A DNA stretch of 64,000 bases from Paenisporosarcina antarctica (lineage in GTDB: Bacteria; Bacillota; Bacilli; Bacillales_A; Planococcaceae): positions 2,424,001 through 2,488,000 of the forward strand of contig NZ_CP038015.1 of assembly GCF_004367585.1 (NCBI RefSeq), in the 5' to 3' direction. The notes beneath the pieces were generated by a model. That model was not told where the DNA came from. It saw nothing but the letters and a program-made list of their open reading frames with translations, and searched no databases. Both the position numbers and the translations under genes were made by a program. Shown here piece after piece: positions 24,004 through 60,125 of the stretch (positions within the stretch are counted from its first letter, which is position 1; the number at the start of each line of letters is the position of its first letter).

Positions 24004-24016
24004 GATGAGTAACCTC

Positions 24017-24770: not shown

Positions 24771-24794
24771 AAGAGAAGAAAATTTTCTTCTCTT
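24771..24794 (-). terminator. 24-bp palindromic terminator after the OpuC-like operon
   Basis: AAGAGAAGAA, AATT, TTCTTCTCTT is a perfect palindrome. The minus-strand reading continues into CATTTTTTTC. It ends the operon that finishes with the alpha/beta hydrolase at 24934 and insulates the glc operon. Confidence 0.75.
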
Positions 24795-24933: not shown

Positions 24934-25848
24934 TTATGCCGTTACTTCTGTCTTTGTATCAACAGACATATGAGAGTTGAAAAAGATTGTCAATTCGGCA
25001 ATGAGCTCCTGAAAAACAGGATCTTCATGATACATAAAATCATTATGTTTTCCATCAATTAAATAAAATTGCTTAGGTTCAGAAGCCGCTGCATATAAAG
25101 CTGTCGATTCCTCAAGGGGATGCAGTAAATTATCTTTTCCGTGACCGATAAATAACGGTGCTGTTGAAATATCTGTTACAACCTTCTCAGCGTTCATATT
25201 CATAATTGAATCAGTAAACTGAAGCTGCGTTTGTTTACCAAAAGGAGATAATGGAACTAATTCCTTTTGAACATAATCGTTTGTTGCTGGGTCTAGAGGG
25301 TAATGAATAAATGGATCAGCATACAGGGATTGTCCTGTTACTACACGTTGCACTCGGTCTTGCTCTACAGTTTTCACAAGATCCATCCATTCAACATAAC
25401 TGTGAATTGATTTTAACCAACGTTCCCCATCAAAGAAACCATTTAGTGCAGCAACTGCTTTTACTCGTTTGTCTTTAGCAGCAACTCGAACGACGTTGGA
25501 GCCACCCATTCCCCATCCAATTAAACCAACTTGGTTAATGTCTACTTCTGGTTGTGCTTGCAAAAAACTAATTGCGTTGATAATATCTTCGACTTGTTCA
25601 TCTAAAATGACACGGCCCTTTTCACCCTCACTGTTGGCAAAACCACGGTAGTCAAATCCAAAGCAAACATACCCTGCTTTTGTTAAGTTTTGCGCAAATA
25701 ATCGTGGGTAAAAGTTATTAAATCCTTGGTACCCTGAGTTTGAAATGATTGCAGGTCTTTTTTCCCCAGCTTGATAATCATCTGGTAAATAAACTGTTCC
25801 ATCTAACTTAAAACCTTCACTATAAAAACTAATTTGGCGTTCTTTCAT
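24934..25848 (-). CDS. Alpha/beta-hydrolase of dienelactone-hydrolase-like type; nucleophile position is Gly
   Basis: About 304 residues with a normal alpha/beta-hydrolase layout: FGFDYRGFANSEGEKG after strand 3-4, the nucleophile-elbow equivalent LIGWGMGGSN, FIGHGKDNLLHP with the acid Asp, and DGKHNDFMYH with the His. The elbow normally reads GxSxGG or GxCxGG; here the nucleophile position is Gly (residue 113, codon GGA). A Ser four residues on could act, or the enzyme has lost hydrolase chemistry or belongs to a divergent subfamily. GGAGG nine bases before the ATG at 25848 favours that start. Last gene of the sigma-54 operon, after the MmgE/PrpD gene. Confidence 0.8.
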   Translation of the reverse strand: MKERQISFYSEGFKLDGTVYLPDDYQAGEKRPAIISNSGYQGFNNFYPRLFAQNLTKAGYVCFGFDYRGFANSEGEKGRVILDEQVEDIINAISFLQAQPEVDINQVGLIGWGMGGSNVVRVAAKDKRVKAVAALNGFFDGERWLKSIHSYVEWMDLVKTVEQDRVQRVVTGQSLYADPFIHYPLDPATNDYVQKELVPLSPFGKQTQLQFTDSIMNMNAEKVVTDISTAPLFIGHGKDNLLHPLEESTALYAAASEPKQFYLIDGKHNDFMYHEDPVFQELIAELTIFFNSHMSVDTKTEVTA

Positions 25849-25880
25849 TTTTAACATCCTCCGTTATAATAGAATTTTTT

Positions 25881-27194
25881 TTATTCATTAATTATAGATA
25901 AAAGCTCACCAATATCATCTAATTTCTCGAGTTGCCTAATGCACTCCAGTAACCTGCGACTTCTCTTTTCTCCGATAATAGGCGTTGTAAGAGAATAGAA
26001 TTTTTCTTCTTTTTCAGCTTCAATTAAAGGGAAATCATAATCCCCTCTAGCTTGCAAAACAGAGGAATATAAGACTCTCCCTGCCTTTGTGTGTATCTCA
26101 ACTTGACTTTGTGCAATTGTTGGGAAAGTCTCATCGAACTTTTTATTAACTCTCGTTTCAATTTTTCCCATTACGTCTAATACGTTCTGGTTTTGTAATT
26201 CATACAAGATTTGCTTAGGTCCAACTTCCCCGAATACAAGGTATGATGCAAGGGGAAATAATAAATTATATTGGGCTTCTTCAGTATTAGTTGGTGCTTG
26301 ATGAGACAAACTAGCTGACTCTGTAAACGTGTAAACGATGATTTTCTCAATCTCTTCGTATTTGATATCCGTTTGACTTACCAATTCTTTCAAGCACTCT
26401 ACAGCCGGCTGAGCCCAACGACAGCATGCGTGAGGCTTATAGTAAAGTTGGTGAATTCGCTCAACCGTTCCAAGCTCTTGCACATATTCCCTTCCTTCAT
26501 TTGATGAAAAAAGAGATGGGATTCCAGTAAATTGAAGCTTTGCTAAATAGGCTGAACTTAGTCCTGTCATGCACCCCCAGCCAATTCCATCCTTCAGCAT
26601 AGATGGATGTTCAATACATCGCATCATGGGAGAATAGGTTGAATGGTATTCCGCTATTCCAAGTGCATGTTCAGTCTCTTGTTCTGACAAACCTAATATT
26701 CTACTTACCCCAGCAGCTGCTCCTATTGCCCCCCACGAACCAGTGCAGTGATATTCTGGACGCTTACGATGCGCAATAATCCCTGCGCGAATTCCTACTT
26801 CGTAGCCTATTAAAACAGCAATAATAAATTCTTCACCCGTCGATTTCAGTTCTTCGGCAGCTGCTAATATAGCCGGAATAACGATAGCTCCAGGGTGCCC
26901 TTTTGTTAAGCGATGTCCATCATCTATATCAAGAGCATTTGCCATGACTGCATTTACAAAAGCTGCTCCTGCTGGAGTAACTTTTTCTTTCTCTAAAAAG
27001 ACAGAACTCACACCTACTCCCCATTGTGCTTTTGTGTATTTCTTCGCAATTATGGATACTTTCGCTTCACTACCTGCAATCGCACATGCAATATGGTCGG
27101 CCAACGCTTCTTTTACTGCCTTAATTGTCTCAGGAGTTTTGTCTACTAATGCTTCCTTTACGATATAAGACGAGACTACACCTCCAACATTCAA
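25881..27194 (-). CDS. MmgE/PrpD-family protein
   Basis: 437 residues matching the 2-methylcitrate dehydratase-related MmgE/PrpD family: LADHIACAIAGSEA near the N-terminus, NALDIDDGH (conserved DDxH motif), HPGAIVIPAILAAAE, GYEVGIRAG, HCTGSWGAIGAAAG, KPHACCRWAQPAVEC and a C-terminal RVNKKF. The family contains dehydratases, isomerases and decarboxylases such as iminodisuccinate epimerase and cis-aconitate decarboxylase, so the reaction is not fixed. No methylcitrate-cycle genes are nearby; the link is to a quaternary-amine transporter, pointing to a dedicated catabolic step. Lies 38 bp after the binding-protein gene. Confidence 0.88.
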   Translation of the reverse strand: MNVGGVVSSYIVKEALVDKTPETIKAVKEALADHIACAIAGSEAKVSIIAKKYTKAQWGVGVSSVFLEKEKVTPAGAAFVNAVMANALDIDDGHRLTKGHPGAIVIPAILAAAEELKSTGEEFIIAVLIGYEVGIRAGIIAHRKRPEYHCTGSWGAIGAAAGVSRILGLSEQETEHALGIAEYHSTYSPMMRCIEHPSMLKDGIGWGCMTGLSSAYLAKLQFTGIPSLFSSNEGREYVQELGTVERIHQLYYKPHACCRWAQPAVECLKELVSQTDIKYEEIEKIIVYTFTESASLSHQAPTNTEEAQYNLLFPLASYLVFGEVGPKQILYELQNQNVLDVMGKIETRVNKKFDETFPTIAQSQVEIHTKAGRVLYSSVLQARGDYDFPLIEAEKEEKFYSLTTPIIGEKRSRRLLECIRQLEKLDDIGELLSIINE

Positions 27195-27232
27195 ACTTTA
27201 ATCAACACCTTTACTTATATAATACTTATTTC

Positions 27233-28159
27233 CTACTCTACTAAACCTTCTTGTACTAGCCATTCTCGAGCCACTTCAGAAATTTCATCATGCTCAACAT
27301 CTACACTATAATTCAACGACATCATTACTTCTGTATTTAATTTAGCAGACAGTTTATTTAACAACTCAGCAAGCTCATCAGTTAGAACTTCATCTCTAAT
27401 TACAGGTGCTGCATTATAAGCTGGGAAGAACATTTGATCGTCTTCCAAAGCAATTAAATCAAATCCTTTAATACGACCATCCGTAGCAAACCCTACAGAC
27501 ACATCTACCTGTCCTTCATTTAATGCGTTATATAGCAATCCTGAATCCATACGAGTGACATTTTTTGAAGGGAATTCAAATCCATACAACTTCTCAAGTC
27601 CTTTAATCCCATCTTCACGAGCATAAAACTCTGCATTTGATGCAAACTTTAGTGAATCATCAATTTTGTTAACATGGTTTGCGAGATCTGAAAGAGTTTT
27701 AATTTTCAATTCATCAGCCAAATCTTTTCGCATTAATAGAGCATACGTATTATTTACTTCTGCTTTATCCAACCAAATTAATCCATTTTTTTCGTCCGTA
27801 TCTTTTACGATTTGATACGTAACGTCTGGGTCTGATTCAACATCATGCTTTTGGTATACAACAAGTGCTGTACCTGTATACTCCCAGTAAAGATCAACCT
27901 GGCCATTTTCTAACGCTGAACGTACAACTGTACTACCCATATTGCTTGCTTCTTCAACTTCATAGTCGTTCTCTTTCAAGTAAATAGACGTTATTTTTGA
28001 TAATAATAATTGTTCTGTAAAGTCTTTCCCACCAATCGTAACCTTACCTTTTGATTCTTTAGATTGATCATCACTATTATCAGCATTATCTGTTTCGCCA
28101 CAGGCAGCCAAAGTAAGAATAAGTGAAAACATCAGTATTCCTAATAAAATTTTTCTCAT
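27233..28159 (-). CDS. OpuC-like ABC substrate-binding lipoprotein (glycine betaine/carnitine/choline type)
   Basis: 308 residues. A lipoprotein signal peptide ends in the lipobox LAAC (Cys20). The mature part has VTIGGKDFTEQLLLSKI, GSTVVRSALENGQVDLYWEYTGTAL and FARED-like blocks characteristic of the OpuAC/OpuCC binding fold, which cages trimethylammonium groups with aromatic residues. Substrate not certain: the adjacent catabolic genes suggest uptake for growth, not only osmoprotection. 20 bp after the second permease gene; AAAAGGAGG precedes the ATG. Confidence 0.9.
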   Translation of the reverse strand: MRKILLGILMFSLILTLAACGETDNADNSDDQSKESKGKVTIGGKDFTEQLLLSKITSIYLKENDYEVEEASNMGSTVVRSALENGQVDLYWEYTGTALVVYQKHDVESDPDVTYQIVKDTDEKNGLIWLDKAEVNNTYALLMRKDLADELKIKTLSDLANHVNKIDDSLKFASNAEFYAREDGIKGLEKLYGFEFPSKNVTRMDSGLLYNALNEGQVDVSVGFATDGRIKGFDLIALEDDQMFFPAYNAAPVIRDEVLTDELAELLNKLSAKLNTEVMMSLNYSVDVEHDEISEVAREWLVQEGLVE

Positions 28160-28179
28160 TATATTATCCTCCTTTTAAT

Positions 28180-28917
28180 TTAAATGATTTCTAACTTACG
28201 CTGTATTCCTTTTGATACAACTAATTTCTCTAGTTTCCCTAAAATGAAATCTATTGAAATCGCTAAGACAATAATAGGAATTGCACCTGATAGCATAATT
28301 CCTGTGTCAGCTATCGCTATCCCAGTAAAGATTAAATCTCCTAACCCACCTCCTCCAATAAGAAATGCAAGAGCGGCGGAACCAACATTTATAACAATTG
28401 ATGTTCTAATTCCAGCTAACATAACAGGGAGTGCATTTGGAATTTCAAGCTTAAGAAGAATTTGAATCTTGGTCATCCCCATTCCTTCTCCAGCGTCAAT
28501 GATTGAACGATTTATGTTGTCAATTCCAGCTACTGTATTTCTTAATATAGGTAGTAAAGAGTTAAACCATAGAGCAAATACCGCAGTTTGCCACCCAAGT
28601 CCAAAGAAAGACATAATTAATGCTAATAAGGCAAGAGTTGGAACCGTTTGTCCAACATTAGCAAAGTTGATAACAATCCAATCATATTTTTTATATTTTG
28701 GTCTTGTGACAAAAATTCCTAACGGTACAGCAACTAATACTGCAAAAAAGCAGGAAATGGCAACTAATCGTAGATGCTGACCACTTAAATATAAAAGGTC
28801 CCCAGGGTTATTAATGATGAATTCAAATGAGCCTGCCTTAAAAGCCCATGCAAACAATGCTATTATTATGGCAACTAGTGAGAATCTAGCTATTCGTTCA
28901 ATTTTCTTCCCATTCAC
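28180..28917 (-). CDS. OpuC-like ABC permease (OpuCD position)
   Basis: 245 residues, six membrane segments, BPD_transp_1 fold. Typical: VAISCFFAVLVAVPLGIF, FANVGQTVPTLALLALIMSFFGLG, the EAA-like loop DAGEGMGMTKIQILLKLEIPNALPVMLAGIRTS and FLIGGGGLGDLIFTG. It is the second of two permease genes flanking the ATPase gene, the usual OpuC order (CB/CA/CD/CC variants). GGAGGGAT precedes the start. Confidence 0.9.
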   Translation of the reverse strand: MNGKKIERIARFSLVAIIIALFAWAFKAGSFEFIINNPGDLLYLSGQHLRLVAISCFFAVLVAVPLGIFVTRPKYKKYDWIVINFANVGQTVPTLALLALIMSFFGLGWQTAVFALWFNSLLPILRNTVAGIDNINRSIIDAGEGMGMTKIQILLKLEIPNALPVMLAGIRTSIVINVGSAALAFLIGGGGLGDLIFTGIAIADTGIMLSGAIPIIVLAISIDFILGKLEKLVVSKGIQRKLEII

Positions 28918-28927
28918 AATATCCCTC

Positions 28928-29929
28928 CTAACGAGCTACAGTCATTTCTGTTGGATGAACAGAGGTCAAAGATTCAAAATCAGAAACACGCAGTACACCG
29001 AGACGTTTTCCAGCTTCATCTTGTACCCATGCTTCCCCTGAATGTGAAGATAGAATAATAGACAGAGCCGTTCTTAAATTATCATTCAGTTTAATTGTAA
29101 ATTGACTTCCTTCTTGCCCATATACTGATGGCTTCTTTAAGTGGTCTAATTTTCCCAATAAATCTTTAACCGTCAATAATGTTAACCGTTTTAAAGAACT
29201 TTCATTTCCAATAAAGTCACGAACAAAATCATTTTTCGGATTGGACAATATATTATCAGGTGAATCAAATTGCATGAGATCACCCTCTTTAAAAATAGCT
29301 ATCTTATCAGCTAACCGAATCGCTTCATCAACATCATGGCTAACAAATAAAATAGTTTTCTTCACATTCTTCTGAATTCGTAAAAACTCATTTTGAATAT
29401 GTTCTCGAATAATCGGGTCAAGAGCACCAAATGGTTCATCCATTAACATGATAGGAGGATCAGCTGCTAGCGCTCTTGCAATTCCAACACGTTGCTGCTG
29501 TCCACCTGATAATTCCCAAGGAAAGCGCTTACTAAATTCGTCAGGTTGTAAACCAAACAAGTCAAGAAGTTCATTTGACCTTTTTTTCATTTTCAACCGG
29601 TCCCAACCCATTAATTTCGGTACTACACTAATATTTTCTTCTATCGTCATATTTGGAAACAAACCATTTTGTTGAATGACATAACCAATTGATCGTCTCA
29701 AATCGTTTATATTTAAAGATTGAGAATTTTTACCATCCACTTCAATTGTTCCACTTGTTATTGGAATTAGACGATTGACCATTCTAAGTAATGTTGTTTT
29801 ACCACATCCTGATGGTCCCAGAAAAACGCATATTTCGCCTTCTTTAATCTCAAGGTCTATTTTATTAACTGCAGTAACTTTTTTCGATTCAGTTTCATAA
29901 ATTTTTGTAACATTTTTAAAATTAATCAT
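28928..29929 (-). CDS. OpuC-like ABC ATPase
   Basis: ATPase of the quaternary-amine importer. Walker A GPSGCGKTT, Q-loop YVIQQNGLFPNM, signature LSGGQQQRVGIARAL, Walker B IMLMDEPFGALD and switch His FVSHDVDEAIRLADKIAI. A C-terminal tail from about residue 250 resembles one or a degenerate pair of CBS segments, shorter than in osmoregulated OpuCA/OpuAA; ionic-strength sensing may be weak. The ATG at 29929 has GGAAGG nine bases before it; an ATG two codons earlier is too close. 19 bp after the first permease gene. Confidence 0.92.
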   Translation of the reverse strand: MINFKNVTKIYETESKKVTAVNKIDLEIKEGEICVFLGPSGCGKTTLLRMVNRLIPITSGTIEVDGKNSQSLNINDLRRSIGYVIQQNGLFPNMTIEENISVVPKLMGWDRLKMKKRSNELLDLFGLQPDEFSKRFPWELSGGQQQRVGIARALAADPPIMLMDEPFGALDPIIREHIQNEFLRIQKNVKKTILFVSHDVDEAIRLADKIAIFKEGDLMQFDSPDNILSNPKNDFVRDFIGNESSLKRLTLLTVKDLLGKLDHLKKPSVYGQEGSQFTIKLNDNLRTALSIILSSHSGEAWVQDEAGKRLGVLRVSDFESLTSVHPTEMTVAR

Positions 29930-29948
29930 AATCATTCACCTTCCTTCA

Positions 29949-30608
29949 TTACGAATTCGCACCTTTTGGACTAAGAAACTTTTGAATTCTTCCAAGTATT
30001 AAATCGGCTGAAATCGCTAATATTGATACTGCTAAGGCACCGACTTGAACCATTACTGTATAACTTGTAGAAATCCCTCGAGCAATGTAGACTCCTAAAC
30101 CACCTGCTCCAATGTAGGCAGCAATAGCTCCAATACCTATTGTCAACACTATTGCCATTCGAATGCCCGCCATAATGACTGGGAGAGACAGTGGAAGTTC
30201 AACTTTGTATAATCTTTGCCATGTGGTCATGCCCATTCCAATAGCAGCATCTCGCGTATTTGGATCTACACTTTTTATTGCAATATACGTATTTCGTATA
30301 ATCGGTAACTGAGAGTAGAGAATTAACGCAACAACAGCTGGGAGAAATCCAATCCCTTGATTAATAATAGAAAAGATTGGAATCATGAGTCCAAACAAAG
30401 CAATACTTGGTATTGTCATGATAATACCTGCAACTGCTAACACTAAATTTGCTAATGATTCCTTTTGTGAAATATAAATACCGATTGGAATCCCAGTTAA
30501 AATAGCAATTCCCACCGCTAGACCAACAAGCTGAATATGCTCCCAGGTTAATTGCAATAATGTAGTCCAGTTAACTTGAATAAATTCAATTAACTCCAAA
30601 TCATTCAC
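29949..30608 (-). CDS. OpuC-like ABC permease (OpuCB position), first gene of sigma-54 operon
   Basis: 219 residues, six membrane segments. Typical: HIQLVGLAVGIAILTGIPIGIYIS, GIIMTIPSIALFGLMIPIF, EAA-type loop DAAIGMGMTTWQRLYKVELPLSLPVIMAGIRMA and YIGAGGLGVYIARG. GGAGGTG lies directly before the ATG at 30608; a TTG four codons in has better spacing and is an alternative. A sigma-54 -24/-12 promoter at 30646-30662 would start the transcript about 30 bp upstream. Confidence 0.9.
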   Translation of the reverse strand: MNDLELIEFIQVNWTTLLQLTWEHIQLVGLAVGIAILTGIPIGIYISQKESLANLVLAVAGIIMTIPSIALFGLMIPIFSIINQGIGFLPAVVALILYSQLPIIRNTYIAIKSVDPNTRDAAIGMGMTTWQRLYKVELPLSLPVIMAGIRMAIVLTIGIGAIAAYIGAGGLGVYIARGISTSYTVMVQVGALAVSILAISADLILGRIQKFLSPKGANS

Positions 30609-30645
30609 CTCCTAGATTTCATATTTGTTTATATAACTATTACTA

Positions 30646-30662
30646 TTGCAATTCCCATGCCA
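30646..30662 (-). promoter_or_regulatory. Sigma-54 (-24/-12) promoter of the OpuC-like operon
   Basis: Minus strand reads TGGCATGGGAATTGCAA: TGGCAT at -24, five bases, TTGCA at -12, against the consensus TGGCAC-N5-TTGCW. It lies 38 bp before the first permease gene and in the same direction. rpoN and an NtrC-type activator are encoded in the same island. Confidence 0.85.
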
Positions 30663-30723
30663 ACTTTAAATTCAGTAAAATTCATTCAATTCAGAACTTT
30701 TCGTAAAAATCTTAAATCATAGA

Positions 30724-30739
30724 GTAAAAATTTTTTTAC
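30724..30739. promoter_or_regulatory. Candidate activator binding site (UAS) of the OpuC-like operon
   Basis: GTAAAAATTTTTTTAC, near-palindromic, about 95 bp upstream of the expected sigma-54 start. The same motif, one base shorter, occurs at 37782-37796 upstream of the other sigma-54 promoter; even the GAG before it is shared in corresponding orientation. Confidence 0.65.
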
Positions 30740-30832
30740 ATACGAATGACTTTGTTTAGTAAATTAACAAATGTTAGAAAATGATGTGCTCGAAGATAAC
30801 ACTTTGTTCTTTTCCTACGTGTAATAAGAGAG

Positions 30833-30884
30833 GTTGTCTAAAATAAACAGTTGGGAACAAAGACATGTTTTACTGTGCCCACTG
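30833..30884 (+). repeat. Degenerate intergenic repeat, copy 2 (possible IS-end remnant)
   Basis: GTTGTCTAA, GACATGTTTTACTG, CCCACTGA match the order of words at 21136-21202. Part of a 740-bp gap without genes. Confidence 0.3.
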
Positions 30885-31173
30885 AAAAATTCACTAGTTT
30901 TCTTTCTTCCTTCCTCCAGAGAACTCAAAAACTTCTTTCCCCCTTAATTTTTGATATGCTTTTTGATTAATTAGGAGTTTTACAGAAACTCTAACATCTG
31001 AAAGTCACAATATTTATTACCCAATTTTTACTATTGCAAATTGGAGCGTGAATTTCACCAGTTGAACACCACATTTTGGCGAGCGAGCAATCATTCATCA
31101 GAAATTTCAGTGAAATTTATTGATGGCTTTAGCCGTCCATTTGCTATTTTGAGAGCAATTATGGTTATCCTCC

Positions 31174-31218
31174 AAATTTTATCTCCAGGTCTACTCGGTC
31201 AACCTGGAGATAAAATTT
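31174..31218. repeat. Perfect 17-bp inverted repeat in the gap before the activator gene end
   Basis: AAATTTTATCTCCAGGT (31174-31190) and its exact complement (31202-31218) enclose 11 bases. No gene adjoins it; no clear T-run on either side. Could be a remnant terminator or a mobile hairpin. Confidence 0.5.
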
Positions 31219-31287
31219 TCCAACTTACTTTTGAAAAAACCATCTATTTTTTCCCTGGTAGGGGAAATATCATGGCCATTATAATAT

Positions 31288-31342
31288 GAAAAGAGGGCTG
31301 AGCATAAAGGTCATATTAAATGACTTTTCTACTCAACCCCTC
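31288..31342 (-). terminator. Long terminator after the NtrC-type regulator
   Basis: AAGAGGGCTGAG and CTCAACCCCTCT form the base, with an inner AAAGGTCAT/ATGACTTTT pair. On the minus strand the stem is followed by CTTTTCAT. It lies about 7 bp past the regulator stop. Confidence 0.7.
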
Positions 31343-31348
31343 TGCTAT

Positions 31349-32716
31349 TTATATTAGGTTAAAAAATTTATTCATTTTATATAATAAGCTTTGCCTTGAT
31401 ATTCCTAGTTTCCTTGCGGCCACAGATTGTTGGCCTAACGCATCATCTAATGCTTTTAAGATAAGTTTCTTTTCAATATCTTCCATTTGTTCAGGTAACG
31501 ATTTTCCACTTTCTTGAAGGTTTGTTTCAACGCTTGGTTCGTAATTCACTTCTCTAATTTCTCTATGAAAATCATCGATTGATAATTGCTGATCTTGAGC
31601 TAAAACAACTGCACGCTCGATTGCATTTTCCAACTCCCGAACATTCCCTGGCCACTGATAGTTTATTAAAATTCTCATCAATTCCCCAGAGATTTGATAG
31701 TCACGTTCATATTTTTTTCGATGTTTGTCCAAGAATTTATTAACAAGTAAAGGAATATCGTCTTTCCTTTCTCTCAAAGGTGGTATGTAAATATCAACAA
31801 TATTTAGCCGATAAAATAAATCCTCTCGAAACTTTCCTTCTTCCACCATTTTTTTTAAGTTCCGATTGGTCGCAGTAATAATCCTGACTTCTACTTGCTT
31901 AATGGAATCACTTCCAACAGGGATAAACGTTTTATTTTGAGTCACCTGTAACAGTTTAGCTTGGAACGCTGGTGTAATTTCCCCAATTTCATCAAGAAAA
32001 ATAGTCCCCCCATTAGCCGCAACAAATTTCCCTTTCCTTGCTGAGACGGCCCCAGTAAACGATCCCTTTTCATGTCCAAATAGTTCACTCTCTAATAATT
32101 GTTCGGGGATGGAAGCGCAGTTAACGGGGATAAACGGGGCATGACTCCGATCACTTAATTTATGCATCGCTTCAGCAATCATACTTTTTCCTGTTCCACT
32201 TTCACCTTCCAACAACACATTTGCATTGGTATTGGACACTCGTTCAATAAGAAGAAGAATTTGTTTCATTACTTTACTTGTTCCTAATAATTCCCCATTC
32301 GTTTCAGATCTCTTTAATTTTTCCTTTAATATATGATTTTCTTGTTTTACTTTTAACCACTCTATTGCTTTCTCAATAACAACAATAATTTCATGGAGTT
32401 TCACTGGCTTAACAATGTAGTCAAATGCACCTGTCTTCATTGCTATAACAGCATTTTCAATATTCCCATAAGCAGTCATCATAATAAATATCTTAGTTGG
32501 ATATACAGAAACAAATTCCTGCAATAAATCTAATCCGGAACAATCAGGAAGTTTTAAGTCTAGGAAAACAATAGATATATCATCTTGTTCATATATTTTT
32601 CGTCGGGCTTCCTGACCATTAGCCGCTGTATATATCGTATAATTCTTTTTCGTTAGTGAAGATTGGAAAATTTTTAATAGCTTGGATTCGTCATCAACAA
32701 TTAATATGCTATTCAT
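31349..32716 (-). CDS. NtrC-family sigma-54-dependent response regulator
   Basis: About 455 residues in three parts: receiver domain (ILIVDDESK, phospho-Asp in FLDLKLPDCSG, KPVK); AAA+ domain with Walker A GESGTGKS, the sigma-54-contacting GSFTGA loop (a tolerated variant of GAFTGA), Walker B GGTIFLDEIGE and FREDLFYRLNIV; and a Fis-type DNA-binding helix-turn-helix, AARKLGISRQSLLYKMNKF. Once phosphorylated it should activate sigma-54 promoters from upstream sites. ATG at 32716 with GGAGG seven bases before it; overlaps the kinase stop by eight bases. The two -24/-12 promoters on either side are its natural targets. Confidence 0.95.
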   Translation of the reverse strand: MNSILIVDDESKLLKIFQSSLTKKNYTIYTAANGQEARRKIYEQDDISIVFLDLKLPDCSGLDLLQEFVSVYPTKIFIMMTAYGNIENAVIAMKTGAFDYIVKPVKLHEIIVVIEKAIEWLKVKQENHILKEKLKRSETNGELLGTSKVMKQILLLIERVSNTNANVLLEGESGTGKSMIAEAMHKLSDRSHAPFIPVNCASIPEQLLESELFGHEKGSFTGAVSARKGKFVAANGGTIFLDEIGEITPAFQAKLLQVTQNKTFIPVGSDSIKQVEVRIITATNRNLKKMVEEGKFREDLFYRLNIVDIYIPPLRERKDDIPLLVNKFLDKHRKKYERDYQISGELMRILINYQWPGNVRELENAIERAVVLAQDQQLSIDDFHREIREVNYEPSVETNLQESGKSLPEQMEDIEKKLILKALDDALGQQSVAARKLGISRQSLLYKMNKFFNLI

Positions 32717-34823
32717 CAAGGACCCTCCCTTTCAGCTTCGGCAAACGAACACATATGGTCGTTCCCTCGTCAATCGAACTTGTAGCTTCTATTGTCCCAT
32801 TATGATGAGAGATGATTTCATAGGCAATGGACAACCCTAAACCTGTTCCTTCTTTTTTAGTCGTGTAAAAAGGATTGAAAATCCAGTTGATATCTGACTC
32901 TGGAATCCCTTTACCAGTATCCCTAATCTCTATCATCCAATCTTCATTAGTCTCTTTTACTGTTATTGTTAAAACACCACCATCTTCCATGGCTTGAATA
33001 CTATTGATAATGATATTTAAAAATACTTGATTTAATTGGTTTTCAATTGCTAGGACATCTATAACTTGATAAGCATAGTTTTGCTGAACCGAGATTTGTT
33101 GATCATCTAGTTTTTTCCTTAATAATGAAAGTAACTCATTAATTAGCACATTCAAATTAACATTTGTTTTATTATTTTCATTTTCACCCTTGGACATTTT
33201 AAGGAAATCAGTGAGTAAGTTATTCATACGATCCGACGTTTCGATAATGTCATTCGTCATTTCCTGAATAAGGTGAGTATCCAATTTATCTTCTTTTAAT
33301 TCAAGTTCAATGGCATCTGATGCAGCAATAATGATACTCAACGGATTTTTTATTTCATGAGCAATTCCCGCTGTTAACTGACCAAGTGATGCCATCCTCT
33401 CTGACTGTTTTAAATACCCCTCTAATTTTTTAACTTCACTAACATCTCTTAAAATAAGAATAGCACCAATATTATGCTTCTTATCATCATAAAATAAAGC
33501 TGAATAAATGCGAACGACATGTTTTATTCCATCTTTATCGAAAATATCATTTTCTACCTCGTTAAACTTCTTACCTTCTTGTAACGTTTGCCATGATAGA
33601 AATTCTTTTTTTGACTTTTTAATTGGAAGATCAGTAATCTTTTTACCAATCACTTCGTTATGATTAAAGAGAGTTAGTTGTTCTGCACCTTTATTAAACG
33701 TTTCTATATTCCCCTTTTTATCAGTTGTTATCACTGCATAAGGAATTGATTCTAATATATTGAACAGTCTCTTTTCTTTATTGGATAATTCTGTAGCCAT
33801 TTCATCCATGATCACAGATAAGTCTTCTAATTCGTCTCCAGTATTTACTTTTTGAAAACTAGAGCGCTTTCCTTCTTTATACTCTCTAGTTTGTTTTGTT
33901 AGAAATCTTATTGGTTTTACAATCCTCGATGTAGCAAAGATGGTAAAAACAAGCGTTAAAATTAAAACTGTTAAAAACCCTTTCAATAATAATCCTTGTA
34001 CATCTGCCGTTGAGGCCAGTGCTTGTTCCAAAGGTTCTCCTACAATCACTCCATAACTCCCTAATTGCATTGGCTGATATGCAAACACCATATATTCGTT
34101 AAATAATAACCCTTCCCAAATTCCTGATTTACTATTATTTAAATAATTTCCAATCGGATTATCAGCAAGACTCGTGCCTATATACGATGCATCGCTATGA
34201 CTAATCAAAACACCATTTCGATCTATAAGTGCGTTTACTCCTCTGTCGCCAATTTTCACTTGATTTAAATGCTGAGACAATACAGCTAAATTAACATATG
34301 CAATAACTCCACCTTGAACATTCTTTTTACTATCGATAATAGGATAAGTAACAGCAATAACTTTTTTTCCATTATCAAGAGTAAATATATTCGATAAATA
34401 AAATGTTTCACTCCAAGAGACTCTGTCAATAAATTCAATTATTTTCTCGGAACCTGATACATGAACATTTGGAATCGTAAATAATGTATTTCCTTGATTA
34501 TCAACAATTTGACTATGCAGGATTAAAGGGTTCCGTGAAATGATTTTTTCTACTTCTTCTAAATCAACATATTCTTTATTCTGTATCTTCAACGTATATT
34601 CTGAAATTAATCTTAAATCATTGATCATGTTAGAAAAAATATAGTTGGTATTCTTTCCTACTGTCTTCGCCATCGTTTGATTACGATAATCCATTTCTTC
34701 TCGCACAGAATTATTCATTACCTGAATCGTTATAAAATATAGTAAGGCTAACGCACAAAAGGTGACGAACAATGAGATAATCAAATATCTTTTAGTTATC
34801 TTTGAACGAAAAAATTGATTCAT
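32709..34823 (-). CDS. Membrane sensor histidine kinase (PDC sensor, HAMP, PAS)
   Basis: About 704 residues. TM1 near residue 15-37, an extracellular PDC/dCache-like sensor (about 40-275, with QIVDNQGNTLFTI and ALIDRNGVLISHSD repeats), TM2 about 281-301, HAMP, a PAS domain (about 350-460, YAVITTDKKGNIETFNKGAE), HisKA with the phospho-His in GIAHEIKNPLSII, and HATPase boxes NIIINSIQAMEDG, DTGKGIPE, GTGLGLS. PDC sensors often bind small ligands such as amino acids, organic acids or quaternary amines, so it may sense the substrate outside the cell. ATG at 34823 has GGAG eight bases before. Co-transcribed with the regulator. Confidence 0.93.
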   Translation of the reverse strand: MNQFFRSKITKRYLIISLFVTFCALALLYFITIQVMNNSVREEMDYRNQTMAKTVGKNTNYIFSNMINDLRLISEYTLKIQNKEYVDLEEVEKIISRNPLILHSQIVDNQGNTLFTIPNVHVSGSEKIIEFIDRVSWSETFYLSNIFTLDNGKKVIAVTYPIIDSKKNVQGGVIAYVNLAVLSQHLNQVKIGDRGVNALIDRNGVLISHSDASYIGTSLADNPIGNYLNNSKSGIWEGLLFNEYMVFAYQPMQLGSYGVIVGEPLEQALASTADVQGLLLKGFLTVLILTLVFTIFATSRIVKPIRFLTKQTREYKEGKRSSFQKVNTGDELEDLSVIMDEMATELSNKEKRLFNILESIPYAVITTDKKGNIETFNKGAEQLTLFNHNEVIGKKITDLPIKKSKKEFLSWQTLQEGKKFNEVENDIFDKDGIKHVVRIYSALFYDDKKHNIGAILILRDVSEVKKLEGYLKQSERMASLGQLTAGIAHEIKNPLSIIIAASDAIELELKEDKLDTHLIQEMTNDIIETSDRMNNLLTDFLKMSKGENENNKTNVNLNVLINELLSLLRKKLDDQQISVQQNYAYQVIDVLAIENQLNQVFLNIIINSIQAMEDGGVLTITVKETNEDWMIEIRDTGKGIPESDINWIFNPFYTTKKEGTGLGLSIAYEIISHHNGTIEATSSIDEGTTICVRLPKLKGRVLDE

Positions 34824-34889
34824 TTTCTTCACTCCAATATGGTCAGAGAGTTATATTAGCATTCATTAACTAATGCAAAATTATTAAGA

Positions 34890-34923
34890 AAAAGGAAACC
34901 CTACATTGCTCCAGGATTTCCTA
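34890..34923 (-). terminator. Terminator after the nitrilase operon
   Basis: AGGAAACCCT and AGGATTTCCT pair around a 10-nt loop; on the minus strand the stem is followed by TTTTTC. It separates the nitrilase operon from the kinase gene. Confidence 0.65.
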
Positions 34924-34961
34924 ATATCTTTACTCATTATACACTTTTAACCGAGTAAATT

Positions 34962-36701
34962 TTATATCACAAGAGGTTTGTACTCTTTGGTTTGACGCAG
35001 TGTGATCAATTTTTCTTGGTTAAACCACCAATCTAAATGTAACGTTTCATAATTGACAATAATAATTTCTTCTATATTTGACGAAGCCATCACAGGTTGA
35101 TCTAATCCATATAATGGATCAATAGTATAGAGTCCACTTCTTCCCCCTACTAATTGATTTGTGTTAATGGAATTAGCTACAATCATATACGCTTGAGAGC
35201 TAAGTGCAATGGAGTCCCATGTTGAAAGAGCTCCTTCTGGATATGAATTTAATGAAATGTTTTTATTCATTTCTAAAGATCTTCCAAACTCTCCTGACCA
35301 GTTTGACGGGATAATAATTGTATCAGCACGTTTAATTGCTAAAATACGAGAAGCCTCAGGAAAAGCAGCATCATAACCAATTAATAACCCAACCCTGCCT
35401 AATTTCTCCGTTTCAAATACTTCGATTTTACTACCAGCAGTGGCCCATCTTTTTTCATCTTTGGTTAAATGCATCTTACGATAAAGTCCTAAGACATCGC
35501 CATAATCGTTAATAAGGATTGAGGAGTTATATAAATGTCCCGACTCTTTTTCCAAGAAACCTAGTACAAGGTACACTTGCTCATCTTTTGCTAATTGTTG
35601 ATATTGCTTCATAAAGTCACTATTTACTTGTTCTGCTAAATCCCTTATTTCTTCAATTGAAAACGTTTCCAAAGATCCAGTTGTCACTAGCTCTGGTAAT
35701 ACTGCTAAAAGAAGTTTCTTTTCCTTTACCTTCGATTGAATAATTGCTTCATGAACCAATTGTTTATGTTTGCTGAAATTTTCTTCCTTACTCATATTAA
35801 TCGATTCGCACTGTAGAATGGCAGCTGTGATTTTATGCTGTTCCTTACTTTTGGTAAAGTCCCACGGCGCAATATATTGCATTAACTCTTTATAACAATC
35901 TGGTTTTCTCTCCTGCAGTCTTGCCTTTCCAGCATTTTGATATAGGGCTTTGTCAATGATGCTATAAATAATGGTTGGTTCATCTATCGGCTGTTCTAAT
36001 GGGGTTACGTAAGGTGACTCTTCTAATTTTTCTCCAAGAGGCGACCAGATAGCGCTAGCTCCAATCATATGAAATCCTTTTTCACAATTTGAACGATTTG
36101 CGCTTAACACATAAAGTCCATTTGTCTCAGCTCTTGCTTGAAGGAGAAAGACAGATTGGGCACTTGAGTTTGTTGGAAATGCAAGAATATTAGCTCCTTG
36201 AACAGCTGCTAATCTTGATGATTCAAAAAAAATTGAGTCCATACATATATTAATGGCAATATTCCCAATCTCTGTTTCAAAAACAGGAACTCCTAAGTCT
36301 CCTAAAGCTGACCAATGAGCTTCACTCTCCCATAAGTGAACCTTTCGATATTTGCCAATATAACCATGTGGACCAATTAGAGCTGCTGAATTATAATATA
36401 AATCGGTTTCCTTATCGATCTCCGGCATACCTACTACAATATAAGTATGAAAATTCTTTGCAATTTCTTCAAACCGAGCCGTTGTTCTCCCGGGTATAGT
36501 ATCAACAAACTGCGAAATAGCCTCACGATCTTTATAGTAATATCCTGTTGTAGCCATTTCCGGTGTAATAATAAGCTTTGCCCCGTTTTGAGCAGCTTCA
36601 ATTACAACGTTAAGTAATGCCTCTATATTTTTCTCTCGCTCATTTAAGATTGGATTAAATTGAATACAGGAAGCTTTAAATGTATTATTTATCTCGTTCA
36701 C
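34962..36701 (-). CDS. Double-domain nitrilase-superfamily amidohydrolase with a degenerate second domain
   Basis: 579 residues made of two tandem carbon-nitrogen hydrolase domains. Domain 1 (about 8-265) has the full Glu-Lys-Cys triad: Glu48 in ITPEMATTG, Lys120 in YRKVHLW, Cys153 in NICMDSIFFE. Domain 2 (about 290-565) keeps Glu337 (LPELVTTG) and Lys409 (YRKMHLTKDEKRW) but reads LLIGYDAAFPE where the family has ICYD-FPE, so Cys is replaced by Gly442 (GGT, one base from TGT). Domain 2 is therefore probably structural or regulatory. Family members hydrolyse amides, nitriles or N-carbamoyl compounds. Downstream of the DUF6282 gene by 57 bp, in one sigma-54 operon. Confidence 0.88.
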   Translation of the reverse strand: MNEINNTFKASCIQFNPILNEREKNIEALLNVVIEAAQNGAKLIITPEMATTGYYYKDREAISQFVDTIPGRTTARFEEIAKNFHTYIVVGMPEIDKETDLYYNSAALIGPHGYIGKYRKVHLWESEAHWSALGDLGVPVFETEIGNIAINICMDSIFFESSRLAAVQGANILAFPTNSSAQSVFLLQARAETNGLYVLSANRSNCEKGFHMIGASAIWSPLGEKLEESPYVTPLEQPIDEPTIIYSIIDKALYQNAGKARLQERKPDCYKELMQYIAPWDFTKSKEQHKITAAILQCESINMSKEENFSKHKQLVHEAIIQSKVKEKKLLLAVLPELVTTGSLETFSIEEIRDLAEQVNSDFMKQYQQLAKDEQVYLVLGFLEKESGHLYNSSILINDYGDVLGLYRKMHLTKDEKRWATAGSKIEVFETEKLGRVGLLIGYDAAFPEASRILAIKRADTIIIPSNWSGEFGRSLEMNKNISLNSYPEGALSTWDSIALSSQAYMIVANSINTNQLVGGRSGLYTIDPLYGLDQPVMASSNIEEIIIVNYETLHLDWWFNQEKLITLRQTKEYKPLVI

Positions 36702-36758
36702 AACAAACCCCCTCTCTAATAATTTAATTGAGTCTACTTCATTTATCCTTACTGACTC

Positions 36759-37637
36759 TTACAGACCTAATAACTGTTTTGGATTATCTACAATCATTTT
36801 TGTAATCTCTTTATCAGACAAACCTCCACGAAGCATGTCATCAATGAATTGACTTAGTGCTTCAATAGGCGGAATATTGTGGCTCTGCCCATAGTCTGTT
36901 ACCATGACACATGAATTTGCGTCTAAAGCTTTAATGGATTGTGCCATTTCTTCTTTTTTTATATCATTAAAGTCATCACTACAGGCTAAATAACATTTTT
37001 CAAGAATACACCCTTTTTTTATTAATTCAAATTCTAACTTATGAGGAATACGTGCAATACCTAGATCTGTATGTTGAATCAATATTTTTTCGACCTTATG
37101 TTCAATGGCCGCATCAACTAATACGGAGACTTCTGCTGGTGCTAAATGCCCTGTTGCAAGAACTATATCCGCTTCAGCAATTAACTCTAATATTTCATGG
37201 ACTTCTGATAAAATCCTTTTGTTATCATCCCAAATTTCTAATCCATAACTATGAGAAAGCTTTTTCTCACTATTAAAAAAATTTGTTTTCTTTTTCCCAA
37301 AGTAGCGTTGATGCTCTTCTGATGAAAAGGTTGGCATCCAAATTACTTTTGCGCCTAAACGAATAGCGGTATCTACGGTCGCAGGAGAAAGACCTCCTGT
37401 AAAATGATTACAGACTAAACCACCATATACATGAAGATCTGGTTCTTTTCCACGAATTAATGTGGCTCTATCCACAGTTTGAGCTTCATGAGCCTTTAAT
37501 ACTACACCTGCCATTTGTGCTTTTTTCACATCTTCTATTAACTCCCAATCTGTTTGTTTTCTTGGAAATAAGCTCGGTGCACTATGAACATGTAACTCTA
37601 TTGCTCCCTTTAGTAACGGATGAAATGTAGTTGTCAT
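36759..37637 (-). CDS. DUF6282-family amidohydrolase-like protein
   Basis: 292 residues. Matches the DUF6282 family: N-terminal metal-type motif ELHVHSAPSLFPRK, VLKAHEAQT, the GGLVCNHFTGGL block, ATGHLAPAEV, IQHTDLGIARI and VMVTDYGQSHN, spaced as in the amidohydrolase/PHP metal-dependent hydrolases, where these His and Asp residues bind metal. Reaction unknown; a hydrolytic step on an amide, lactone or imine is plausible. First gene of the operon, about 33 bp after the expected sigma-54 start; the nitrilase follows. GGGGAGTAAT precedes the ATG. Confidence 0.82.
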   Translation of the reverse strand: MTTTFHPLLKGAIELHVHSAPSLFPRKQTDWELIEDVKKAQMAGVVLKAHEAQTVDRATLIRGKEPDLHVYGGLVCNHFTGGLSPATVDTAIRLGAKVIWMPTFSSEEHQRYFGKKKTNFFNSEKKLSHSYGLEIWDDNKRILSEVHEILELIAEADIVLATGHLAPAEVSVLVDAAIEHKVEKILIQHTDLGIARIPHKLEFELIKKGCILEKCYLACSDDFNDIKKEEMAQSIKALDANSCVMVTDYGQSHNIPPIEALSQFIDDMLRGGLSDKEITKMIVDNPKQLLGL

Positions 37638-37680
37638 AAATATTACTCCCCTTTATTTATTAATCATTTTATATTTTACT

Positions 37681-37697
37681 TTGCAAGAATTGTGCCA
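37681..37697 (-). promoter_or_regulatory. Sigma-54 (-24/-12) promoter of the DUF6282-nitrilase operon
   Basis: Minus strand reads TGGCACAATTCTTGCAA, an exact match to TGGCAC-N5-TTGCA, 44 bp before the DUF6282 start and in the same direction. Confidence 0.92.
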
Positions 37698-37781
37698 CTT
37701 TTTAAAAATCAATAAAACACTGCAGGACTCGATAATAGCCAATCGTACTTTTGAAACATCCAAATTCAATGTTGTCTATTT

Positions 37782-37796
37782 GTAAAAAAATTTTAC
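37782..37796. promoter_or_regulatory. Candidate activator binding site (UAS) of the DUF6282-nitrilase operon
   Basis: GTAAAAAAATTTTAC, a near-palindrome about 119 bp upstream of the expected start. Its complement, GTAAAATTTTTTTAC, differs by one A from the site at 30724-30739. ATTTGTAAA (37778-37786) and TTTACAAAT (37813-37821) also form an inverted pair, hinting at two adjacent sites as is common for NtrC-type proteins. Confidence 0.65.
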
Positions 37797-37985
37797 TCAT
37801 TTTTTTAACTTCTTTACAAATTCACATGCTAAAAAGTAATTTATTTTTACGTCTATTGATAAGGATGGAGTAAAAGTTGATGAGTAATATATTTCGCAAT
37901 TTATAGCAGTACTTCTTCTCGAGATTAATTTATAGATTTTCCGTATATTTGACGATTGTTGAATGTTATATTTTCACCGTAAGAA

Positions 37986-38033
37986 AACACCTCCTGAGTA
38001 GCCGCTAAATCTACAGTCGGCACTAGGGGTGTT
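37986..38033 (-). terminator. Probable terminator after rpoN
   Basis: AACACCTCCTGAGTAGCCG pairs with CGGCACTAGGGGTGTT with small bulges; minus-strand end GTGTTTTC. Lies 28 bp past the rpoN stop. Confidence 0.5.
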
Positions 38034-38060
38034 ATCTTATGTTTATCTTTTTTATACACT

Positions 38061-39374
38061 TCATACTTTTATCTCTTTTCTGTTACTTGAAGAGGGGATT
38101 TTTAGTTCTTCCCGATACTTACTAATCGTACGTCTAGAAATGGTAATTCCTTTTTCATCATTAAAATAACTAGCAATTTTTTGATCTGACAACGGTTTGA
38201 ATTTATTTTCTTTCGCAATATAAGTTTCTAATAGTCTTTTTACCTTCGTTTGAGATACGGAATTTCCGTCTACGGTTTCTAACTTTGACGTAAAGAACAT
38301 CTTAAGGTCAAAAGTTCCTTTTGGTGTTTGAATAACTTTATTCATAGTAGCCCTACTTACAGTAGACTCGTGCATGCCTATTTCTTCCGCAACTTCTTTT
38401 AAAGTTAATGGTTCAAGTGACATAAATCCGTCTTTAAAAAATCTTTCTTGTTTATTAATAATGACCTTCACTATTTTCATTATCGTTTGACGTCGCTGTT
38501 CTATACTGCTTAACAACCATTGATAACTAGTATATTTATCATTAATATACTTTGAAGTCTCATCCTTATTATTTAGTAAACTTGTATATTCATTATTAAA
38601 ATTAATTTTAGGCAAATAACTATCATTTAAATAAAAAGATATCTCCGTTTCTTTAATTTCTACAATAATATCAGGATTCAAATATTCTATTGAGAAGTCT
38701 GAAATGCTAGAACATGGTCTAGGATTAAGAGTCAGAATAAAGTCGTTAATATCTTTTACCTGGGTCATAGTTATGTTCATGCGTGCAGCTATATCATTCC
38801 ATTTTTTATTCGCTAAAAGTTCCAAATAATTCTGAACTAGACATTTAGCTAATTCTTCTTTTGGAAAATCAATTGTAATTTGCAATAGTAAACATTCCTT
38901 CAAATTCCTTGCGCCTATCCCAGTAGGACCAACTTGTTGAAGAAGCTCAATTCCTCTGTCAATTTCACTTTCTTCAAACTCTCCATAAGGAAATGGTTCA
39001 ATTTGATTGAGATGTAAATAGCCACTATCGTCAAGATTATGAATGATATAGCTAATAATTTTTTGATCTTGAACATCCTTAAATAACAATTTTGCTTGTT
39101 CTAATAACATATTTCTCATACTCATATCATTACTTGATACTAAATCCACTGTCATTTTAGTGGGGCTAATTGACTTCAAGTTCCCATTAGATTTTTCTTC
39201 ATTCAAAGAAGCATTCTTTTGTTCTACTAAATCAATTAAGGGGTTTTCCAACTCTTGTTCTCTTATAAATTGGTACAGTTCATAAGTAGTGTATTGTAAT
39301 AATTCAATGGCTTGTCTTAACTCGAGTGTCATTATTAGATTAAGTTCTTGTCTTTGTTTGAGAACGAGTTCCAT
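38061..39374 (-). CDS. rpoN: RNA polymerase sigma-54 factor RpoN
   Basis: About 437 residues. The N-terminal activator-interacting region is Gln/Leu-rich (QRQELNLIMTLELRQAIELLQYTTYELYQFI), followed by an acidic linker, the core-binding domain (ISYIIHNLDDSGYL, GPTGIGARNLKECLLLQI), the helix-turn-helix LTLKEVAEEIGMHESTVSRA and the diagnostic RpoN box ISRRTISKYREEL near the C-terminus. ATG at 39374 has GGAGGGG before it; an in-frame upstream start lies within that ribosome site. Its place between the two sigma-54 operons and their activator makes the island nearly self-contained, although RpoN would serve other genes too. Confidence 0.96.
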   Translation of the reverse strand: MELVLKQRQELNLIMTLELRQAIELLQYTTYELYQFIREQELENPLIDLVEQKNASLNEEKSNGNLKSISPTKMTVDLVSSNDMSMRNMLLEQAKLLFKDVQDQKIISYIIHNLDDSGYLHLNQIEPFPYGEFEESEIDRGIELLQQVGPTGIGARNLKECLLLQITIDFPKEELAKCLVQNYLELLANKKWNDIAARMNITMTQVKDINDFILTLNPRPCSSISDFSIEYLNPDIIVEIKETEISFYLNDSYLPKINFNNEYTSLLNNKDETSKYINDKYTSYQWLLSSIEQRRQTIMKIVKVIINKQERFFKDGFMSLEPLTLKEVAEEIGMHESTVSRATMNKVIQTPKGTFDLKMFFTSKLETVDGNSVSQTKVKRLLETYIAKENKFKPLSDQKIASYFNDEKGITISRRTISKYREELKIPSSSNRKEIKV

Positions 39375-39732
39375 GGTTTCCCCTCCCATATTTGATTATT
39401 GTAACCGTTTACATGAATATTCATTTTATTATAATACAACTTCTCATAATTCTCTATGGAAAATAATGAATCTTCTGAATTGCGGAATTCAATAAACCGA
39501 TATTTTCCTACTACACTTTGTTTACTAGTTTGTCCTTGGAGTAATTTTTACTACATCTAGATACGAAAAACCGGACAAATTCACACTCGGCACTATTAAG
39601 AAAGCACTAGATTATAAATTGTTTTTCCATACAATTCCAACTAAGTTCCGACTTTGGATGCCCGATGATATTCTTAACGTCTATAATAAAAGACGCTGAT
39701 ACTACTACTGCTTTCGAGTTAACCCACTATAT
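39375..39732. other. Gap upstream of rpoN without recognised gene
   Basis: 358 bp, AT rich; should contain the rpoN promoter. I see no -24/-12 element or coding region that I can defend. Confidence 0.4.
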
Positions 39733-56590: not shown

Positions 56591-56618
56591 CACGTCTCCT
56601 CCCCAATTCATAATAAAA

Positions 56619-59148: not shown

Positions 59149-59156
59149 GGTGGCAC

Positions 59157-60104: not shown

Positions 60105-60125
60105 TTTCTCAACTTCTTCCTTCAA

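Follow-up and report, generated by a model that had tools for sequence, protein, structure and literature searches.

Several catabolic regulons of Bacillus depend on SigL, the sigma-54 factor, and in those of RocR, AcoR, BkdR, PrdR and LevR a local activator drives the adjoining catabolic operon. In the AtoS/AtoC and NtrB/NtrC systems a sensor kinase is paired with an AAA+ activator of the response-regulator kind, and -24/-12 promoters adjoin their genes. The sigma-54 activators of Bacillus thuringiensis carry PAS-, GAF- or PRD-type input domains according to the accessible part of their description, the text of which makes no mention of glycine betaine, nitrilase, transporter or amidohydrolase (PMC4428206). 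Here we describe a gene cluster of Paenisporosarcina antarctica that resembles these systems, found in a stretch of 64,000 nucleotides (the window; G000:C1:2424001-2488000, from a 3.97-Mb genome in two contigs). A sequence-only reading of this DNA had placed here rpoN, an activator with GSFTGA, a sensor kinase, DUF6282, an OpuC-type transporter and MmgE/PrpD, and our open reading frame (ORF) and domain check of the window recovered all the genes that it named, as intact ORFs on the minus strand in the expected positions. We consider it probable, although far from certain, that the cluster is a dedicated two-component, sigma-54-dependent catabolic regulon for the import and breakdown of a betaine-like compound. 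Its regulation by sigma-54 is well supported by sequence comparison; its enzymology we infer from sequences and a structural model, as we do the order of reactions and the substrate.

The response regulator has the features of an NtrC-type enhancer-binding protein, namely a receiver domain, an AAA+ domain with GSFTGA and a Fis-type helix-turn-helix. It differs from the B. thuringiensis activators, as far as these are described in the part of the report cited above, in having a receiver domain and a membrane kinase. The cluster also differs from AtoS/AtoC and NtrB/NtrC in its dCache sensor, in its target genes and in scoring well below the respective cut-offs. AtoS/AtoC proper was rejected at 458.7 of 714 bits for AtoC and 289.5 of 646 for AtoS, and the regulator also fell below the NtrC equivalog cut-off. 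Compared with solved structures, the kinase sensor gave only weak matches to chemoreceptor and histidine-kinase sensors (best E 0.0027), with no hint of a ligand.

Of 261 genomes of the order, 9 contain DUF6282; in a sample of 398 genomes from the class it occurs in 53, and 50 of these score above the family cut-off. We compared 54 DUF6282 loci, leaving out most lower-scoring matches, and the window type (51-84% identity) occurred in 15 genomes and on one plasmid. Eleven of these genomes belong to what we call the sigma-54 type, and every one of them has the OpuC-type importer and the alpha/beta-hydrolase-fold gene. Kinase and regulator are present in 10 of the 11, the contig of G444 stopping within the regulator gene; the nitrilase is present in all, as a double protein in eight and a single one in three (called by Pfam in Gottfriedia, by similarity in G313 and by eye in the translation in Cytobacillus); MmgE occurs in eight (only a 44% piece in G480) and GlcD in ten. 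In Cytobacillus, DUF6282 and the other genes of the set are split by contig ends; in Gottfriedia, about 21 kb of one contig separate the transporter operon from the genes for kinase and regulator. The co-occurrence search that the sequence-only reading had called for has found the gene set conserved, together with sigma-54 sites, in 11 other Bacilli genomes, and sequence evidence firmly supports a two-component sigma-54 catabolic regulon shared by several Bacilli genera. A GntR-type variant, in three genomes and a Priestia plasmid, combines DUF6282, the alpha/beta-hydrolase-fold gene, GlcD, a Na/glutamate-type symporter and a GntR regulator, with GlcF in three of the four; no kinase, regulator or OpuC importer was found within the examined stretches of 20-25 kb. 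The window-type DUF6282 gene of Bacillus sp. AFS088145 (L022) has no partner genes within 20.8 kb and is probably a remnant; some of its flanking ORFs resemble by eye those of the Gottfriedia locus L019. At the cluster edges, once antisense or mis-called ORFs and one family (two copies in L165, one in L023) had been set aside, the only recurrent gene was one common to Brevibacillus and G449, between the alpha/beta-hydrolase and DUF6282 genes. The Brevibacillus gene (L020:8174-9886) encodes a chemoreceptor with HAMP and MCP signalling domains and has a relative in G449 (L100:7864-9609), so that chemotaxis towards the substrate may perhaps be part of the system.

Both -24/-12 promoters of the earlier reading were recovered, one before DUF6282 and one before the transporter operon. 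By number alone, neither the -24/-12 sites of the window (3 with at most one mismatch, 1.47 expected; 19 of 100 shuffles reach 3) nor its upstream palindromes (2, 0.82 expected) exceed chance; the sites are credible because of their position, the attached palindrome and their conservation in relatives. A first scan of 15 loci at any position, of which L020 and L102 represent the same genome, gave 33 sites where 10 were expected from Markov sequence. For the final count we accepted sites with at most one mismatch that lay on the strand of a cluster gene and no more than 200 bp upstream of its aligned start. By this rule each of the 11 other sigma-54-type genomes has at least one site, at most 136 bp upstream and mismatch-free in 10 of 11, and nine have one before the transporter operon. 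The same rule returned no site upstream of cluster genes in the GntR-type loci or in AFS088145; L084, L104, L150 and L022 have one site each elsewhere, that of L104 lying inside GlcD on the opposite strand.

The palindrome GTAAA-N-TTTAC was first spotted by eye upstream of -24/-12 sites. In 23 hand-picked promoter-upstream stretches of 220 bp each, a set that omitted one site before MmgE in G313 and some loci retrieved later, there were 8 perfect copies (0.055 expected) and 13 with at most one mismatch (1.7 expected). Three transporter operons, two copies in Cytobacillus and one in Gottfriedia, were retrieved after the motif had been fixed and served as an independent test; all three have a mismatch-free -24/-12 site with a perfect palindrome 77-78 bp upstream. 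We then counted within 130 bp upstream of -24/-12 sites, taking copies of one site once and including the window: all 11 sites before the transporter operon have the palindrome with at most one mismatch, 8 of them perfect and 10 at 75-80 bp. Taken over all promoters, the palindrome is firm for the transporter promoter, frequent for the DUF6282 promoter and not a feature of the others. Across the whole genome, a half-site combined with a -24/-12 element at that spacing occurs three times (reversed-pattern control, none); two occurrences are the window promoters and the third lies upstream of the other extra rpoN gene. The palindrome is the predicted binding site of the AtoC/NtrC-type regulator of the cluster.

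With its two permeases, ATPase and binding protein with an aromatic cage and a Lys/Thr/Arg site, the importer is similar to OpuC, Archaeoglobus fulgidus ProX and EgtU of subcluster F-III. In the accessible portions of the respective papers, the ProX site comprises Y63, D109, Y111, R149, Y190 and Y214 (PMC10087775), and EgtU has an aromatic cage with Asn at its base and Lys/Thr/Arg contacts to the carboxylate (PMC9732360). Alignment of the window protein with ProX (1sw2) left K13, Y63, T66, Y111, E145, R149 and Y214 unchanged, with F for Y190 and N for D109. The binding-site residues of the window protein were found in 12 of 13 copies, the G444 protein differing at two cage-region positions (Asp for Asn137, Leu for Phe224). 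The cage and the Lys/Thr/Arg carboxylate site are the marks of an F-III betaine protein, and judged by these residues the window protein appears to keep the betaine site and not the ergothioneine site; a zwitterion that bears both a cationic head and a carboxylate is fairly supported as the class of substrate. In contrast to OpuC, ProX and EgtU, the window system stands in a catabolic operon with a sigma-54 promoter, has no CBS domain that we could find, carries Phe for one cage Tyr and is not of the ergothioneine type.

The gene that had been read as a double nitrilase is indeed a fusion; two live nitrilases it probably does not encode. All 10 copies keep the Glu-Lys-Cys triad in the first half and have Gly for Cys in the second, where 3 of 10 also have Gln for Lys, and by these residues the second half is predicted to be dead. 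The first half resembles models of N-carbamoylputrescine amidase and of archaeal nitrilase. This similarity, and a nitrilase in each of the sigma-54-type genomes, would suit a nitrogen-scavenging pathway for an amide or cyclic imide, in which DUF6282 opens the ring, the nitrilase hydrolyses the half-amide and an ordinary zwitterion rather than a quaternary amine is consumed. Of the import and degradation pathway put forward earlier, the sigma-54 regulon for a betaine-like compound stands, whereas quaternary-amine degradation is doubtful, because no demethylase was seen in the gene set and because the GntR-type variant uses a Na/glutamate-type symporter; both observations also speak for nitrogen scavenging. 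The aromatic cage and carboxylate site of the binding protein argue against it, as does the nitrilase, for which the three GntR-type genomes showed no match at their loci, and we regard nitrogen scavenging as rather unlikely while taking it seriously.

Sequence searches up to E 1 gave no solved relatives of DUF6282, so we turned to a model and a fold search. The model, built from six sequences (pLDDT 83.8, pTM 0.86), had phosphotriesterase (PTE)-like lactonases as its best Foldseek matches, with TatD and 2-pyrone-4,6-dicarboxylate hydrolase (LigI) close behind. Among the 52 sequences that reach 250 residues, none departs from H164, H189 and D248, and 51 have H16, H18, K48 and H50; the metal ligands are complete in the 15 relatives compared. 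The model places DUF6282 in the amidohydrolase superfamily, with HxH/His/His/Asp on strands 1, 5, 6 and 8, an assignment of fold class only. DUF6282 shares this fold and the metal ligands with LigI and the PTE-like lactonases and differs from them in overall sequence (about 12-15% identity in structural alignments) and in K48, H50 and E213, which are specific to DUF6282. On the Thermus oshimai plasmid pTHEOS01 (L153) a DUF6282 gene follows catechol-dioxygenase and GntR genes and precedes PIG-L and CHA-aldolase genes. At such a place in protocatechuate meta-cleavage clusters a pyrone-dicarboxylate hydrolase is expected, and by analogy the Thermus protein is a candidate alternative enzyme for this step. 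Other DUF6282 subfamilies lie beside aldolase genes and tripartite ATP-independent periplasmic (TRAP) transport systems. A sister cluster (L070 and similar) contains a metallo-beta-lactamase-fold hydrolase, DUF6282 (about 42% identical), a major facilitator superfamily transporter, GntR, GlcD and GlcF, and in several cases a DAO-family oxidase; that of L070, beside DUF6282 and GlcDF, is an L-2-hydroxyglutarate oxidase (603.5 bits, cut-off 299). The Thermus, aldolase and TRAP neighbourhoods and this oxidase are consistent with a lactone or 2-hydroxy-acid pathway related to the end products of aromatic meta-cleavage, to which a betaine-type importer would have been recruited; however, those DUF6282 subfamilies are only about 26-44% identical and have other partners, which makes such a pathway unlikely.

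In the alpha/beta-hydrolase-fold protein, all 17 sequences have GWGMG where 7qjm has GISLG, Asn for the acid and a retained His, and it is consequently not a serine hydrolase as defined by a G-x-S-x-G nucleophile, an acid and a His. It scored 122.5 of the 400 bits of the UilS N-acyl-homoserine lactonase equivalog cut-off and was rejected as such; in the accessible text of the UilS paper, active-site words led to nothing on catalytic residues. Methylketone synthase 1 (MKS1), which lost the canonical triad and kept the His, decarboxylates beta-keto acids, and alpha/beta-hydrolase-fold oxygenases work without the nucleophile, as stated in the part of the source open to us (PMC10548524). Because of these precedents we would guess, by analogy, that the window protein performs a non-hydrolytic step. 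It resembles MKS1 in its fold, its lack of a canonical triad and its retained His; MKS1 is a plant enzyme of an unrelated pathway and the resemblance is one of residues only. The MmgE protein belongs to the MmgE/PrpD fold family and was rejected as 2-methylcitrate dehydratase PrpD (44.8 of 950 bits); its solved relatives, iminodisuccinate epimerase and cis-aconitate decarboxylases (E 4e-26 to 2e-14), are too distant to name a reaction. GlcD scored 507.8 of the 567.9 bits of the glycolate oxidase equivalog.

Two further explanations concern the importer. Its binding protein and ATPase are closest to ProX, OpuC and ProV types, which would suit osmoprotectant uptake by an OpuC system that sits among metabolic genes by chance. 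The ATPases of OpuC osmoprotectant importers carry CBS domains; in the window ATPase no CBS family was found up to E 0.1, and this, the sigma-54 sites with their conserved palindrome and the linkage to the enzyme genes in 11 other genomes make osmoprotectant uptake quite improbable. Uptake and degradation of ergothioneine, for which EgtUC stands among the nearest solved relatives and shares the Lys/Thr/Arg carboxylate residues and N-x-Y, is hardly credible, since both determinants described in the accessible part of the EgtU paper, Gly244 and a Tyr-to-Phe switch (PMC9732360), are absent from 13 of 13 copies, with Phe47 at the Gly244 position and Tyr94 at that of EgtU Phe293.

For the regulon proposed here, the dCache kinase would sense an extracellular substrate or product and phosphorylate the AtoC/NtrC-type regulator. 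The phosphorylated regulator would bind GTAAA-N5/6-TTTAC, as predicted from conservation, and open two -24/-12 promoters, the first for DUF6282 and the nitrilase, the second for the OpuC-type importer, MmgE and the alpha/beta-hydrolase-fold protein. The substrate taken up by the importer would be zwitterionic, combining a cationic head with a carboxylate. DUF6282 could open a lactone or cyclic amide, as suggested by its fold, its metal ligands and the aromatic meta-cleavage cluster that holds a distant member of the family; the nitrilase half with the full triad would remove an amide nitrogen; MmgE, where present, might isomerise, dehydrate or decarboxylate; and the nucleophile-less alpha/beta-fold protein might catalyse a reaction other than hydrolysis, for instance a decarboxylation driven by its His. 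GlcD and GlcF would then convert the D-2-hydroxy acid so formed into a 2-oxo acid by oxidation. The neighbourhood on the Thermus plasmid and the L-2-hydroxyglutarate oxidase of L070 speak for this scheme as well. It is tempting to speculate further, and we do so only tentatively, that a betaine-type pathway does not start by demethylation, that DUF6282 is a metal-dependent lactonase or cyclic hydrolase and the alpha/beta-fold protein a cofactor-free decarboxylase or lyase, and that the dead nitrilase half is a fixed structural or regulatory partner. The sequence-only reading knew of no described pathway with this gene set, and our literature searches, which left subscription journals mostly outside, agree with it: they returned no paper on the gene combination, none on DUF6282 and none that brings together at least three of L-2-hydroxyglutarate oxidase, GlcD, lactonase and amidohydrolase. 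On tandem or dead nitrilase halves, none of the matches listed fits by its title or the start of its abstract. DUF6282, the alpha/beta-fold protein and the half-dead nitrilase point to chemistry for which we found no description in the literature.

The functional unit reaches beyond the part first singled out, to about position 21303, and takes in GntR, GlcD and GlcF. GlcD and GlcF are members of the set, as they are in relatives, and this genome has no close GlcD paralogue (the next matches are 37, 36 and 25% identical; only the GlcD beside the cluster exceeds 37%). Several observations weigh against the proposed regulon. GlcDF have their own GntR and lie beyond a terminator-like hairpin in the window, so that we only infer their co-regulation with the cluster; GlcD and GlcF were not found in the Siminovitchia locus, and in Siminovitchia, Schinkia and G444 (3 of 11) a whole-genome search at E 1e-40 found no MmgE. 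No -24/-12 site precedes the transporter operon in G431 and G444, and the sole site of G431, which has one mismatch, is 136 bp upstream of the aligned nitrilase start. The palindrome was counted in the same set in which it was first seen, only three loci being independent; allowing one mismatch, it accompanies four of the eight -24/-12 sites of DUF6282 and one of the six of the alpha/beta-hydrolase, and none of the four upstream of the nitrilase nor the single one upstream of MmgE. The Foldseek TM-scores of DUF6282 are modest (0.46-0.62 by query length, among the 50 matches listed), and the cluster contains no substrate-specific signature.

The rpoN gene of the window has the activator-interacting, core-binding and DNA-binding domains (PF00309, PF04963 and PF04552, all above cut-off). 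The cluster had been described as self-contained, a description that does not hold: rpoN was not found in the examined loci of 16 other window-type DUF6282 carriers, several of which stop at contig ends, and the present genome has three rpoN genes. In the 12 carrier genomes searched whole, the three GntR-type genomes being left out, rpoN lies elsewhere, in one copy (11 genomes) or two (one genome), 35-40% identical. Since no rpoN was found at the locus in relatives, which have it elsewhere, its adjacency here is a local feature. The second copy of this genome, at G000:C1:257650, is 91% identical and stands beside another activator, near a soluble diiron monooxygenase operon; the third, 32-33% identical, is upstream of gapA-pgk-type genes. 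RpoN matches at E 1e-30 occur in 146 of 261 genomes of the order, both types counted. Among the neighbourhoods listed for the wider family (L130-L149), several rpoN genes have a sigma-54 activator or -24/-12 sites close by and several others do not, and adjoining operons look catabolic by eye, with hydroxyproline-type, histidine-type and amidase-type genes; it is as if these rpoN genes travelled with their targets. The diiron monooxygenase set (G000:C1:244162-248391 and 248787-258963; L163, L014) comprises two Phenol_Hydrox subunits, a reductase and an MmoB/MimD-like effector (MimD, 136.7 of 150 bits), and adjoins amidohydrolase, Zn-alcohol dehydrogenase and GroEL-like genes, a sigma-54 activator, -24/-12 sites and its own rpoN; from its genes it appears to be a propane-monooxygenase-like island. 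In B. subtilis, sigL is reportedly under CcpA roadblock control. The window contains 13 matches to the catabolite-responsive element (cre) at 8 places, palindromes being counted twice, against 3.19 expected matches, and none of 100 shuffles reaches 13; besides the cre-like sites at rpoN and in the nitrilase gene, one lies upstream of cstA (41407-41420).

Features of the cluster and its flanks, with positions counted from the first letter of the window
Feature	Position	Strand	Remarks
rpoN (sigma-54)	38061..39389	-	better-placed ATG gives probable start at 39374
cre-like (CcpA) palindrome directly upstream of rpoN	39400..39413	-	one mismatch
Predicted upstream activator palindrome, GTAAA-N5-TTTAC	37782..37796	-	99 bp before -24 element
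-24/-12 promoter of operon 1 (before DUF6282)	37682..37697	-	TGGCACAATTCTTGCA
DUF6282, amidohydrolase-fold (modelled)	36759..37637	-	metal-ligand set H16, H18, H164, H189, D248
Fused two-domain nitrilase	34962..36701	-	first half E48-K120-C153; second half, Gly442 replaces Cys
cre-like site within nitrilase gene	35658..35671	+	zero mismatches
Terminator-like hairpin between nitrilase and kinase genes	34893..34922	-	
Sensor histidine kinase	32709..34832	-	dCache_1/PAS/HisKA/HATPase
Response regulator, AtoC/NtrC type	31349..32719	-	Response_reg + Sigma54_activat + HTH_8, GSFTGA
Predicted upstream activator palindrome, GTAAA-N6-TTTAC	30724..30739	-	77 bp before -24 element
-24/-12 promoter of operon 2 (before transporter operon)	30647..30662	-	TGGCATGGGAATTGCA
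OpuC-type permease 1	29949..30608	-	
ProV/OpuCA-type ATPase	28928..29935	-	
OpuC-type permease 2	28180..28917	-	
Substrate-binding protein	27233..28159	-	predicted betaine site K45, Y94, T97, Y139, E177, R181, F224, Y248
MmgE/PrpD-fold protein	25881..27194	-	optional member of set
Alpha/beta-hydrolase-fold protein	24934..25857	-	Gly116 for Ser nucleophile, Asn243 for acid, His271 retained
Terminator-like hairpin after operon 2	24771..24794		both strands listed
GntR/FCD regulator adjoining GlcDF	24017..24715	-	
GlcD-type FAD dehydrogenase	22588..24093	-	counterpart of GlcD in homologous clusters
GlcF-type Fe-S subunit	21303..22607	-	

Terminator-like hairpins number 15 in the window, against 8.9 expected (standard deviation 3.5). 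Elsewhere in the window, a cyclic di-GMP-II riboswitch (56647-56730; 74.6 bits, gathering threshold 53.5) lies upstream of the ORF at 56108-56611, and at 58528-63215 a DctP-type (TRAP) binding-protein gene and permease-like ORFs stand beside 2-keto-3-deoxy-6-phosphogluconate aldolase and PfkB kinase genes in an operon of sugar-acid type.

Altogether, the cluster offers an example of a two-component sigma-54 catabolic regulon conserved across several Bacilli genera. It may bring a domain of unknown function, a nucleophile-less clade of the alpha/beta-hydrolase fold and a half-dead nitrilase fusion together in one testable pathway, for which the binding protein and the sensor, both of which could be screened for their ligand, and the two promoters with their candidate activator site, which could serve as reporters, would be the points of entry.

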